Assembly (NCBI GenBank): GCA_016932615.1
Contig: JAFGCN010000007.1
Coordinates: 99,325 to 163,324 of the forward strand
Length of the DNA stretch: 64,000 nt
Reading direction: 5' to 3'
Source of the DNA: Candidatus Aenigmatarchaeota archaeon
Lineage (GTDB): Archaea > Aenigmatarchaeota > Aenigmatarchaeia > QMZS01
Position numbers and translations under genes: made by a program. The first letter of the stretch is position 1, and every line of letters begins with the position of its first letter. The notes below the pieces were generated by a model. That model saw only the letters and a list, made by a program, of their open reading frames with translations, made no database searches and was not told the DNA's origin. This document shows positions 24,795-26,814 of the stretch, piece after piece.

Positions 24795-26269
24795 TTTTCA
24801 ACCCTCTCAAGAACGGCATTCATTAATGTCTCTTTTTCTTCTTTACTGAGCCCTTCTGAAATTGTAACCATGCACGCAAGGTGCTTTCTAAGCCCGATTT
24901 TGACTCCTTCAGGGGTTTCCTGGGTGCAGTATTTTGCCCAGTGGGTTCCATGAAGCTCACGCGCCTCCGGGTGCTCCTGTGATGATGAAAGCATTGAAAT
25001 AACAGCCCTCATGTTTGAAAGCCGGCGCACATAATTTACCCTGTCAAGCCGCTGAGCGACTCCAGCCCTTCCTCCGACCCACTGTCCGGTGGCCAGGGAC
25101 GAAACAATCCTCCTTGTGATGTAGTTTGACTCGAACAATGCCTGGATTACAGGGTATTTCTTTCTCTTGGTAAGCCGCTGGTAATTGTACCTTACCCTGC
25201 TTGAAAGCCCATTCTTTCCAAGGAAAAGAGACCTCAGCAAAACGTCCATAAAGTAGCCGGAAAGCCGGATTCTCTTGTTTGCAAGGTGGTCTATGTCATC
25301 GCCCCTCTGGCTTTCCATGCCAATTTTTATGAGCCGCCTTGCGACATGAGCCAAATATTTTGCCTTTATCTGCTGGTCTTTTGGCTCGGTTCCAAGGTGG
25401 TGGAGCAAGAAGTTGTTAAGAAGGTTCTGGACCCTCTCCTCGGGGGTTTCCTTTCCCATGCCTTTGACGAACTTCTGAAGGAACGTAAGCGCGTCTTCCC
25501 TGGACTTTACCTCCTCGAACTCGTAGATGTTTGTAAGGACTTCATCCTCCATCTTGGGGGCCACTGCCAGACTCTGGATTATCTGCTGGTCGGTTTCGAG
25601 CCCCAGCGCCCTTATTACAACAATAAGCGGCACGTTTCTGAGGTTTGAAAAGTTCATGTAGAGGATTTTGTCTTTTCTTTCAATCATGTGCCTCTGGATG
25701 TACTGGTCCTTTTCGGAGTTAATCCTTGCCATCTCGTTCTTTTTCTCCTTTGTTGCTACAAGCCGGTTATTTGCAACCTCCTCGACGCCGATAATGACCT
25801 TTTCTGTTCCGTTGATTATAAAGTAGCCGCCAGGGTCCTGAGGGTCTTCGCCGATTTCGACCAATTCTTCAGGAGTGAGCTTGGAAATGGGGTCAAGTGA
25901 CGACTTGACCATTATTGGAAAGTCGCAAAGCTTGATTTTTTCCGGCTCCTGTGGGATTTCATTTGCGACCAAAACAGTCGTTACATAAAGAGGGCAGGAG
26001 TAGTTGAGGTTTCGGATTATCGCCTCCATAGGGGTAATCTTTCTCTCATAGCCGTCCGCCTCCTTTATGACCGGCTCTCCAAAGGATACTTTCCACAAAA
26101 CAAGCTTTAAGTTGTCTTCAAGAGGAATCTGGCCAATAGAGTCGATAATCTGCTGGATTCCGCCAGTAACAAACTGGTTGTATGACCTTAAGTGGTGCTT
26201 TACGGCGATGTCTGAGAGCTCATTTTCAATAACGTGCCTGAAACCCTCAAAAAGCATCTTATCGTTCAT
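24791..26269 (-). CDS. rpoB2: RNA polymerase subunit B'' (N-terminal half of beta)
   Basis: 492 residues, the lobe/protrusion half of split beta. Signatures are YVTTVLVANEIP, DPGGYFIINGTEKVIIGVEE, DDIDHLANKRIRLSG (fork region), NYITRRIVSSLATGQWVGGR, and LSNMRAVISMLSSSQEHPEARELHGTHWAKYCTQETPEG-like C-terminus. It overlaps rpoH (26269/26266) by 4 bases and rpoB1 by 4 bases, giving a tightly coupled rpoH-rpoB2-rpoB1 operon. Confidence 0.97.
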   Translation of the reverse strand: MNDKMLFEGFRHVIENELSDIAVKHHLRSYNQFVTGGIQQIIDSIGQIPLEDNLKLVLWKVSFGEPVIKEADGYERKITPMEAIIRNLNYSCPLYVTTVLVANEIPQEPEKIKLCDFPIMVKSSLDPISKLTPEELVEIGEDPQDPGGYFIINGTEKVIIGVEEVANNRLVATKEKKNEMARINSEKDQYIQRHMIERKDKILYMNFSNLRNVPLIVVIRALGLETDQQIIQSLAVAPKMEDEVLTNIYEFEEVKSREDALTFLQKFVKGMGKETPEERVQNLLNNFLLHHLGTEPKDQQIKAKYLAHVARRLIKIGMESQRGDDIDHLANKRIRLSGYFMDVLLRSLFLGKNGLSSRVRYNYQRLTKRKKYPVIQALFESNYITRRIVSSLATGQWVGGRAGVAQRLDRVNYVRRLSNMRAVISMLSSSQEHPEARELHGTHWAKYCTQETPEGVKIGLRKHLACMVTISEGLSKEEKETLMNAVLERVEK

Positions 26270-26508
26270 ACGGCCACCCTGTAATAAAGGTAAGTGCCCT
26301 CATCATCAAGGACATTCCTCCTTATTTCAAATAAATCCCCTACTTTTGGGTCAAAAACCCTGATTGCGGGGTCTTTAACGCTGATTTTAGGCATGTTTTT
26401 CTCGGTCGCGCTGAACTTCTCAAAAATTGCCTGCTTTTCCTCCTCAGTGAGTTTCCTGTGCTCAGGAACCAGAAAATGCTCGTTAACCGGAATTTCTTTT
26501 TTTACCAT
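26266..26508 (-). CDS. rpoH: RNA polymerase subunit H (Rpb5-like)
   Basis: 80 residues, the standard length. It starts MVKKEIPVNEHFLVPEHRKL and carries the conserved MPKISVKDPAIRVFDPKVGD and LFEIRR...YYRVAV end. The open frame extends further upstream to 26634, but that part is the tRNA-Lys gene, and homology begins at ATG 26508. The ATG lies only 11 bases after the 3' end of tRNA-Lys, so the operon is probably co-transcribed with or processed from the tRNA. Confidence 0.95.
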   Translation of the reverse strand: MVKKEIPVNEHFLVPEHRKLTEEEKQAIFEKFSATEKNMPKISVKDPAIRVFDPKVGDLFEIRRNVLDDEGTYLYYRVAV

Positions 26509-26532
26509 GGTATGTTTTTTGGGCCCGACGCG

Positions 26533-26562
26533 ATTTTCGGTGGCGTCTTTTCGGACATCCTT
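26533..26562 (-). other. tRNA-Lys intron 3 (after T-loop, 60/61)
   Basis: 30 bases, containing GTCC...GGAC-like pairing (ATGTCCGAAAAGACGCC) and ending GAAAAT before CGCGT. Intron 2 of tRNA-Val ends the same way (GAAAAT). Confidence 0.65.
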
Positions 26563-26569
26563 ATTCGAA

Positions 26570-26606
26570 TTCGCGGACAAGCACCCCTTTTTGGGAGATG
26601 TTTTCT
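26570..26606 (-). other. tRNA-Lys intron 2 (between T-stem and T-loop, 53/54)
   Basis: 37 bases with a CTCCC...GGGGTG-like short hairpin. The boundaries are set by the T-stem GCGCG and the exact T-loop TTCGAAT. Confidence 0.65.
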
Positions 26607-26622
26607 CGCGCGACACCCGGAT

Positions 26623-26726
26623 ATCTTTGTGCACCGTTTTTACCTGTCGTCATAGGGCATTATATTAATACCCTCAAAACTTTTAAACTCGACATAGCCG
26701 CCTCCTATTTAAGGCGGAAATGCCCT
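26623..26726 (-). other. tRNA-Lys intron 1 (anticodon loop 37/38)
   Basis: 104 bases. GGGCAT at its start can pair with ATGCCC near its 3' part, enclosing an inner CCGCC/GGCGG hairpin. It does not share the AAGCTTTTC family hairpin of the other tRNA introns. Confidence 0.75.
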
Positions 26727-26814
26727 TAAAAGTCCGGTGCTCTACCAGCCTGAGCTACGGGCCCACTTATATACTTTGGAGGATAGTTTTAAATTCTGCA
26801 GGGAAGCGACTATT

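Follow-up and report, generated by a model that had tools for sequence, protein, structure and literature searches.

Introduction

Why archaea keep tRNA introns is a largely unanswered question. The intron of tRNA-Trp has been called the unique case of an intron that encodes a modification guide (PMC4090602, PMC2584109), and a 2024 review names it as the only archaeal intron-encoded guide (PMC11408192). In the archaeal pre-tRNA-Trp, as in H. volcanii and in sR50 of Pyrococcus, the guide lies in a 37/38 intron, its guide sequence and C/D boxes are aimed at nucleotide 34 of its own tRNA, and splicing is at a BHB (PMC7994747, PMC4090602, PMC2584109). The guide for tRNA-Trp is reported to be always intronic, and the guide for tRNA-Met (Cm34) always a separate sRNA (PMC2584109). 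Tolerance of several introns in one tRNA is also described. Thermoproteales, Caldiarchaeum and ARMAN have tRNAs with up to three BHB introns, some of them in the T-arm (PMC4033280, PMC3293823). The tRNA-Ile(UAU) of Cyanidioschyzon merolae has three introns, located in the D-, anticodon and T-arms (PMC9602550).

The locus described here resembles both kinds of system. It is a tRNA-Lys(UUU) gene of an uncultured Aenigmatarchaeota archaeon with three introns, two of them in the T-arm, and its 37/38 intron has the anatomy of a box C/D guide that is likely to be aimed at the wobble nucleotide of its own tRNA. The window is the whole stretch of DNA that was analyzed, 64,000 nucleotides in length.

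Structure of the tRNA-Lys(UUU) gene

The gene is on the minus strand of the window (26764..26520) and is composed of four exons of 38, 16, 6 and 14 nt, split by introns of 104, 37 and 30 nt. Exon 1 (nt 1-37; 26727..26764) provides the 5' strand of the acceptor stem, the D-arm and the 5' strand of the anticodon stem, with the anticodon TTT at 26730..26728. Intron 1 (26623..26726) interrupts position 37/38, has a CTTT/AAAG central helix with bulges TA^A and AT^A, and contains the box C/D-like guide. Exon 2 (nt 38-53; 26607..26622) carries the 3' strand of the anticodon stem, the variable loop and the 5' strand of the T-stem. Intron 2 (26570..26606), at position 53/54, has a CGCG/CGCG central helix and relaxed flanks. 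Exon 3 is a 6-nt micro-exon, TTCGAA (nt 54-59; 26564..26569). Intron 3 (26534..26563), at position 59/60, has a TTCG/CGAA central helix with two AA^T bulges, and its outer helix is the T stem. Exon 4 (nt 60-73; 26520..26533) completes the T-stem and the acceptor stem with their 3' strands and ends in the discriminator A.

At each of the three introns, a perfect 4-bp central helix lies between 3-nt bulges that are cut as NN^N. The outer helix is complete for intron 1, where it is the anticodon stem, and for intron 3 once intron 2 has been removed. Introns 2 and 3 are relaxed BHBs, because the outer helix of intron 2 is weak and the inner helices at the splice sites are imperfect. The placement of intron 3 rests on the orthologous loci L030 and L033, in which the base after A59 is G; U60 is therefore the first base of the last exon, which leaves 6 nt for the micro-exon. 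Moving intron 3 to 60/61 gives the same spliced product, but the central helix is then not matched, as checked by hand.

ARAGORN identifies the spliced 74-mer as tRNA-Lys(ttt), and a cloverleaf is the minimum-energy fold of this RNA. ARAGORN made no tRNA call on the unspliced gene or on the partly spliced forms tested. Across the window, neither ARAGORN nor Rfam at gathering thresholds reported any tRNA, and Rfam with relaxed thresholds found only the 5' half of tRNA-Lys together with a wrong 3' end.

A first-pass annotation, made from the letters of the window, had proposed introns of 104, 37 and 30 bases and a 74-nt tRNA, and this is upheld by ARAGORN, the fold, the BHBs and the orthologs. 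Its expectation that automatic annotation would likely miss the tRNA is borne out by the ARAGORN and Rfam gathering-threshold searches. It had also described TTCGAAT as an isolated 7-base exon, which is wrong in length. It had called T-arm introns rare; in this lineage they are not exceptional.

Orthologs and genomic setting

The window genome is a 1.26-Mb, 97%-complete assembly. Its relatives, identified by RpoB'' at 70-74% identity, are recorded as Candidatus Aenigmatarchaeota/Aenigmarchaeota; class and family labels are those assigned by the search tool. Within the family, the tRNA-Lys gene is conserved upstream of rpoH, and the orthologs carry different subsets of introns. L029 has the 37/38 intron alone and an intact T-arm (GCGCGTTCGAATCGCGT). 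Introns at 37/38 and 53/54 occur in L032, L035 and L077, and those at 37/38 and 59/60 in L031. A D-arm intron accompanies the 37/38 and 59/60 introns in L030, L033 and L034. The window gene joins 37/38, 53/54 and 59/60 in one tRNA-Lys. The strongest support for each intron being real comes from this pattern of presence and absence. None of the family orthologs recovered lacks the 37/38 intron. Introns 2 and 3 appear to be lineage-specific insertions and show no sign of a function of their own.

Downstream of the tRNA is rpoH (26266..26508, minus strand), which encodes 80 aa from an ATG at 26508. The first-pass annotation had held that rpoH would be falsely extended by 42 residues, and this is exactly the case: the mechanical ORF is 122 aa and reaches 26634. 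It had also suggested looking for another TTT tRNA-Lys in the genome. BLAST of the mature sequence against the whole assembly found no second full tRNA-Lys(UUU); there was one 26-nt 5' match on C22, at 89%. The guide conserved inside intron 1 had gone unnoticed.

The stems that pair only after splicing, the BHB central helices, the orthologs lacking single introns and the absence of another copy found in the assembly make it very likely that this is a functional three-intron tRNA-Lys(UUU). This is inferred from sequence alone, and there are no RNA data on splicing in vivo.

Three further observations concern the genomes of this group. In G001 (L086, minus strand near 1849), a second, partial tRNA-Lys intron core and T-arm precede another rpoH-like start, as a duplication or an assembly error. 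In the 97%-complete window genome, a general tRNA model reports only 8 tRNAs at E<=0.001, and the family relatives are similar; most tRNA genes here therefore seem to be interrupted beyond recognition. Finally, an element TCCCTTTTCTT..AAGAAAAGGTCTnACnACCCCAAAAG recurs in long introns, mostly in the T-arm, of many tRNAs of the window genome and its relatives (L005, L006, L009, L015, L019, L050, L074 and L075; also L033, L112, L139 and L212). It has the appearance of a spreading intron family.

A box C/D-like guide in intron 1

The anatomy of a box C/D methylation guide is taken as defined in PMC2584109. Intron 1 contains an 8-nt guide, TTAAAAGT (26679..26686, minus strand), that is the reverse complement of nt 31-38 (ACTTTTAA) of its own tRNA; the A at 26682 pairs with U34 (26730). 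A D-like box, TTGA (26674..26677), begins 2 nt past the nucleotide that pairs with C32, which places U34 at N+5, the fifth nucleotide counted back from TTGA. Between the D and C boxes is the stem-loop GGGTATTA/TAATGCCC (26655..26673), in whose place other families have unrelated paired sequences. A 3-nt bulge, TAT, then leads into the C-like box ATGACGA (26647..26654 for bulge and box together), giving k-turn geometry.

This core is very strongly conserved within the family: TTAAAAGT, TTGA 2 nt further on, the stem GGGTATTA/TAATGCCC, a 3-nt bulge, and ATGA or GTGA. The exceptions are L030 and L033, whose guides have one mismatch (TTAAAG), and L033 also has TAGA for TTGA. The boxes of the window gene are degenerate (TTGA, and ATGACGA against RUGAUGA), and the canonical CTGA or ATGATGA is present in other members, such as L136, L153 and L180. 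Covariation of the stem within the family alone was not significant (71/500 shuffles). By inspection, no convincing C'/D' pair was found, and there is one guide-D-C unit per intron. For this reason the element is said to work like a box C/D guide, possibly a single-unit variant. An unsystematic look at the Lys intron 1 showed no clear second guide for nt 39, a feature of the tRNA-Trp type of intronic guide. Taken together, these features make intron 1 a likely box C/D guide, with 2'-O-methylation of U34 as its predicted outcome, an inference for which there are no modification data.

Other candidates were considered and rejected. An rpoH promoter within intron 1 does not fit, since tRNAs of other identities share the anatomy, with a sequence that changes with the anticodon. 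An H/ACA unit was rejected by inspection: below the k-turn, no pocket separates the lower from the upper stem, and an ANA box is not evident. A second guide in L077, GGTGC against GCACC (nt 24-28) with a D box, was dropped because it is not conserved.

Distribution of the guide in Aenigmatarchaeota

Two models were run on the 156 genomes of the class. The first, R1, was built from the family tRNA-Lys intron cores only, with the anticodon excluded. Outside the family it gave 13 matches, all in 37/38 introns of tRNAs: ten in tRNA-Lys(UUU) and one each in Arg(UCU), Met(CAU) and Lys(CUU). In each of these last three, the guide is altered to fit its own anticodon. The second model, R2, includes the guide pairing and was used with a cut-off of E<=0.05, at which it matched in 109 of the 156 genomes and in 28/32 families (our own count of the listing). 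The R2 search of the phylum used the same 156 genomes as the class search, and the distribution covers Aenigmatarchaeota only.

Ninety-four distinct introns were examined (44 Lys-UUU, 32 Met, 16 Arg-UCU and 2 Lys-CUU). A YYGA box is at offset +2 in 73 and at +4 in 7 of the 94, and in none at +0, +1 or +3. An RTGA C box comes next in 80/83, compared with a mean of 23 and a maximum of 33 for shuffled tails. In 37/83 there is a stem whose bulge has exactly the 3 nt of the k-turn, compared with 0 to 5 for other registers and 0.3 for shuffles. This set is partly selected for guide pairing, because R2 includes the pairing. The R1 matches are not so selected, nor is a sample of intron-bearing tRNAs drawn from four genomes with the general Rfam tRNA model and without a guide model.

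In G018 and G127, guides were found in introns of Lys, Met, Gln(UUG), Leu(UAA), Arg(UCU) and Trp(CCA). The Trp case, one Met case and one Lys case were read by eye, and the D box of Leu(UAA) is less clear. Introns of Gly, Thr, Arg(CCU), Arg(UCG), Val and Tyr in the same two genomes are without a guide. In the window genome, self-guide introns are carried by tRNA-Gln(UUG) (L074, minus strand near 1926) and tRNA-Glu(UUC) (L063, plus strand near 1057), each with a D box TTGA at +2 and the stem plus bulge. That scan required 5 paired loop nucleotides rather than 6 or more and covered 60 stretches, most but not all of the genome. A scan of raw sequence for self-guides without a tRNA filter gave no excess (28 vs 27 in the complement control). 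The guide signal appears solely within real tRNA genes.

A minority of the guides end 4 nt rather than 2 before the D box (L141, with a degenerate box, L147, L148, L187, L206, L221, L230, L232 and L235). By the N+5 rule, the +4 offset would target nt 32 (C32) and not nt 34. Cm32 is among the archaeal 2'-O-methylation sites (PMC2584109), and Um34/s2Um34 are known in other archaeal tRNAs (PMC7668247). A bolder reading is that the phylum keeps many 37/38 introns as single-unit self-guides that methylate the wobble ribose of their own tRNA (nt 34, in some cases nt 32). On this reading, guide and anticodon co-evolve, and the isotypes concerned are at least Lys, Met, Arg, Gln, Glu, Leu and Trp. The balance of evidence leans slightly in its favor.

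Splicing endonuclease and C/D proteins

A search of the 11 family genomes recovered a single PF01974 endonuclease gene in each of 10, the window genome among them. The window genome's enzyme is alpha-like and is closest in sequence to those of M. jannaschii and N. equitans. Loops in the crenarchaeal and ARMAN endonucleases, as defined in PMC12397907, have been linked to broad specificity. By alignment, the enzyme is gapped at both the Crenarchaea-specific loop of A. pernix and the ARMAN-2 loop, and between its catalytic Tyr and His it carries an additional segment in common with the N. equitans chain. That this endonuclease handles relaxed BHBs is inferred from the gene structures; there are no cleavage data. 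An acidic, lysine-rich N-terminal extension of ~110 residues lies ahead of the catalytic domain (L119:937-1797). Fibrillarin is encoded in all 11 family genomes, and Nop5 in the window genome.

Proposed mechanism

The gene is likely a functional tRNA-Lys(UUU) that is spliced three times by an EndA-type endonuclease, and whose intron 1 is also a box C/D guide for its own tRNA. The gene and its introns, the guide complementarity, the box spacing, the k-turn geometry and the conservation of these features are shown at the level of the DNA. The RNP assembly, the U34 methylation and the order of events are inferred, and there are no RNA or modification data.

The precursor tRNA-Lys would be cut at its three introns by the cell's EndA-type splicing endonuclease. 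TTGA and ATGACGA, joined by the short stem, would form a k-turn that binds L7Ae and recruits Nop5 and fibrillarin. The 8-nt guide would pair with anticodon loop nt 31-38, and the N+5 rule would put a 2'-O-methyl on wobble U34. Because the guide and the BHB central helix use the same loop nucleotides (C32-U35), guiding and splicing would be mutually exclusive conformations, and methylation would either precede splicing or act in trans. If in trans, another precursor or an excised, probably circular, intron may methylate U34. Circularization of the intron would bring the C box, the guide and the D box together in a single closed unit. In vitro experiments with H. volcanii tRNA-Trp had led to the same proposals of order and of trans action (reviewed in PMC7994747, PMC2584109).

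Alternative explanations

The alternative that survives best, though it is unlikely, is that the pairing of anticodon and intron is a mere structural hairpin of the precursor, which organizes folding or delays splicing and guides no methylation. In its favor, the guide pairs perfectly in cis across a short loop in many members (L031, L032), and the pairing would mask nucleotides needed by the BHB central helix. Against it, a hairpin leaves unexplained why YYGA is fixed at +2 or +4, why there is an RTGA box and why the stem has a bulge of exactly 3 nt, as well as the limitation to particular isotypes.

A second alternative is that this is an ordinary multi-intron archaeal tRNA and that the core of intron 1 has another role, such as binding a protein through its k-turn or influencing rpoH. 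There is ample precedent for three-intron tRNAs and for introns in the T-arm (PMC4033280, PMC3293823), and the conservation of the core in the family is compatible with such a role. Yet across families the core keeps its anatomy and not its sequence, tracks the anticodon, and is also present in tRNAs of identities other than the one upstream of rpoH, which makes this reading very unlikely.

A decayed tRNA pseudogene, for which the four pieces and the relaxed BHBs at introns 2 and 3 might speak, is all but excluded. Every stem pairs in the spliced form, members of the family keep the gene upstream of rpoH, and the 97%-complete genome yielded no other tRNA-Lys(UUU). The methylation guide remains the preferred reading.

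Significance and comparison with known systems

The guide principle is now predicted for seven or more tRNA identities, and 109/156 Aenigmatarchaeota genomes have model matches. Intron retention thus becomes testable as the retention of a wobble modification, and the natural series of co-varying guides and anticodons could decide between action in cis and in trans. Standard tools badly under-annotate the tRNAs of Aenigmatarchaeota genomes.

Compared with Thermoproteales, Caldiarchaeum and ARMAN, the multi-intron tRNA-Lys belongs to another phylum, and by alignment its endonuclease is alpha-like, without the crenarchaeal and ARMAN loops. Unlike the window gene, the tRNA-Ile(UAU) of Cyanidioschyzon merolae is eukaryotic, and the abstract of PMC9602550 mentions no intron-encoded guide.

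The pre-tRNA-Trp guide is dual, with C/D and C'/D', and characterized archaeal C/D RNAs have these two units, whereas the Aenigmatarchaeota introns have a single guide-D-C unit. Guides in Aenigmatarchaeota are also not confined to Trp, and extend to Lys, Met, Arg(UCU), Gln, Glu and Leu. For Met, the guide sits in the intron here, unlike the separate Met sRNA of PMC2584109. No intron-encoded guide outside tRNA-Trp is described in the open-access literature searched, and a report that was not seen is possible. A three-intron tRNA with T-arm introns is already known elsewhere; within that literature, the extension of the intron-encoded guide beyond tRNA-Trp is likely the new part.
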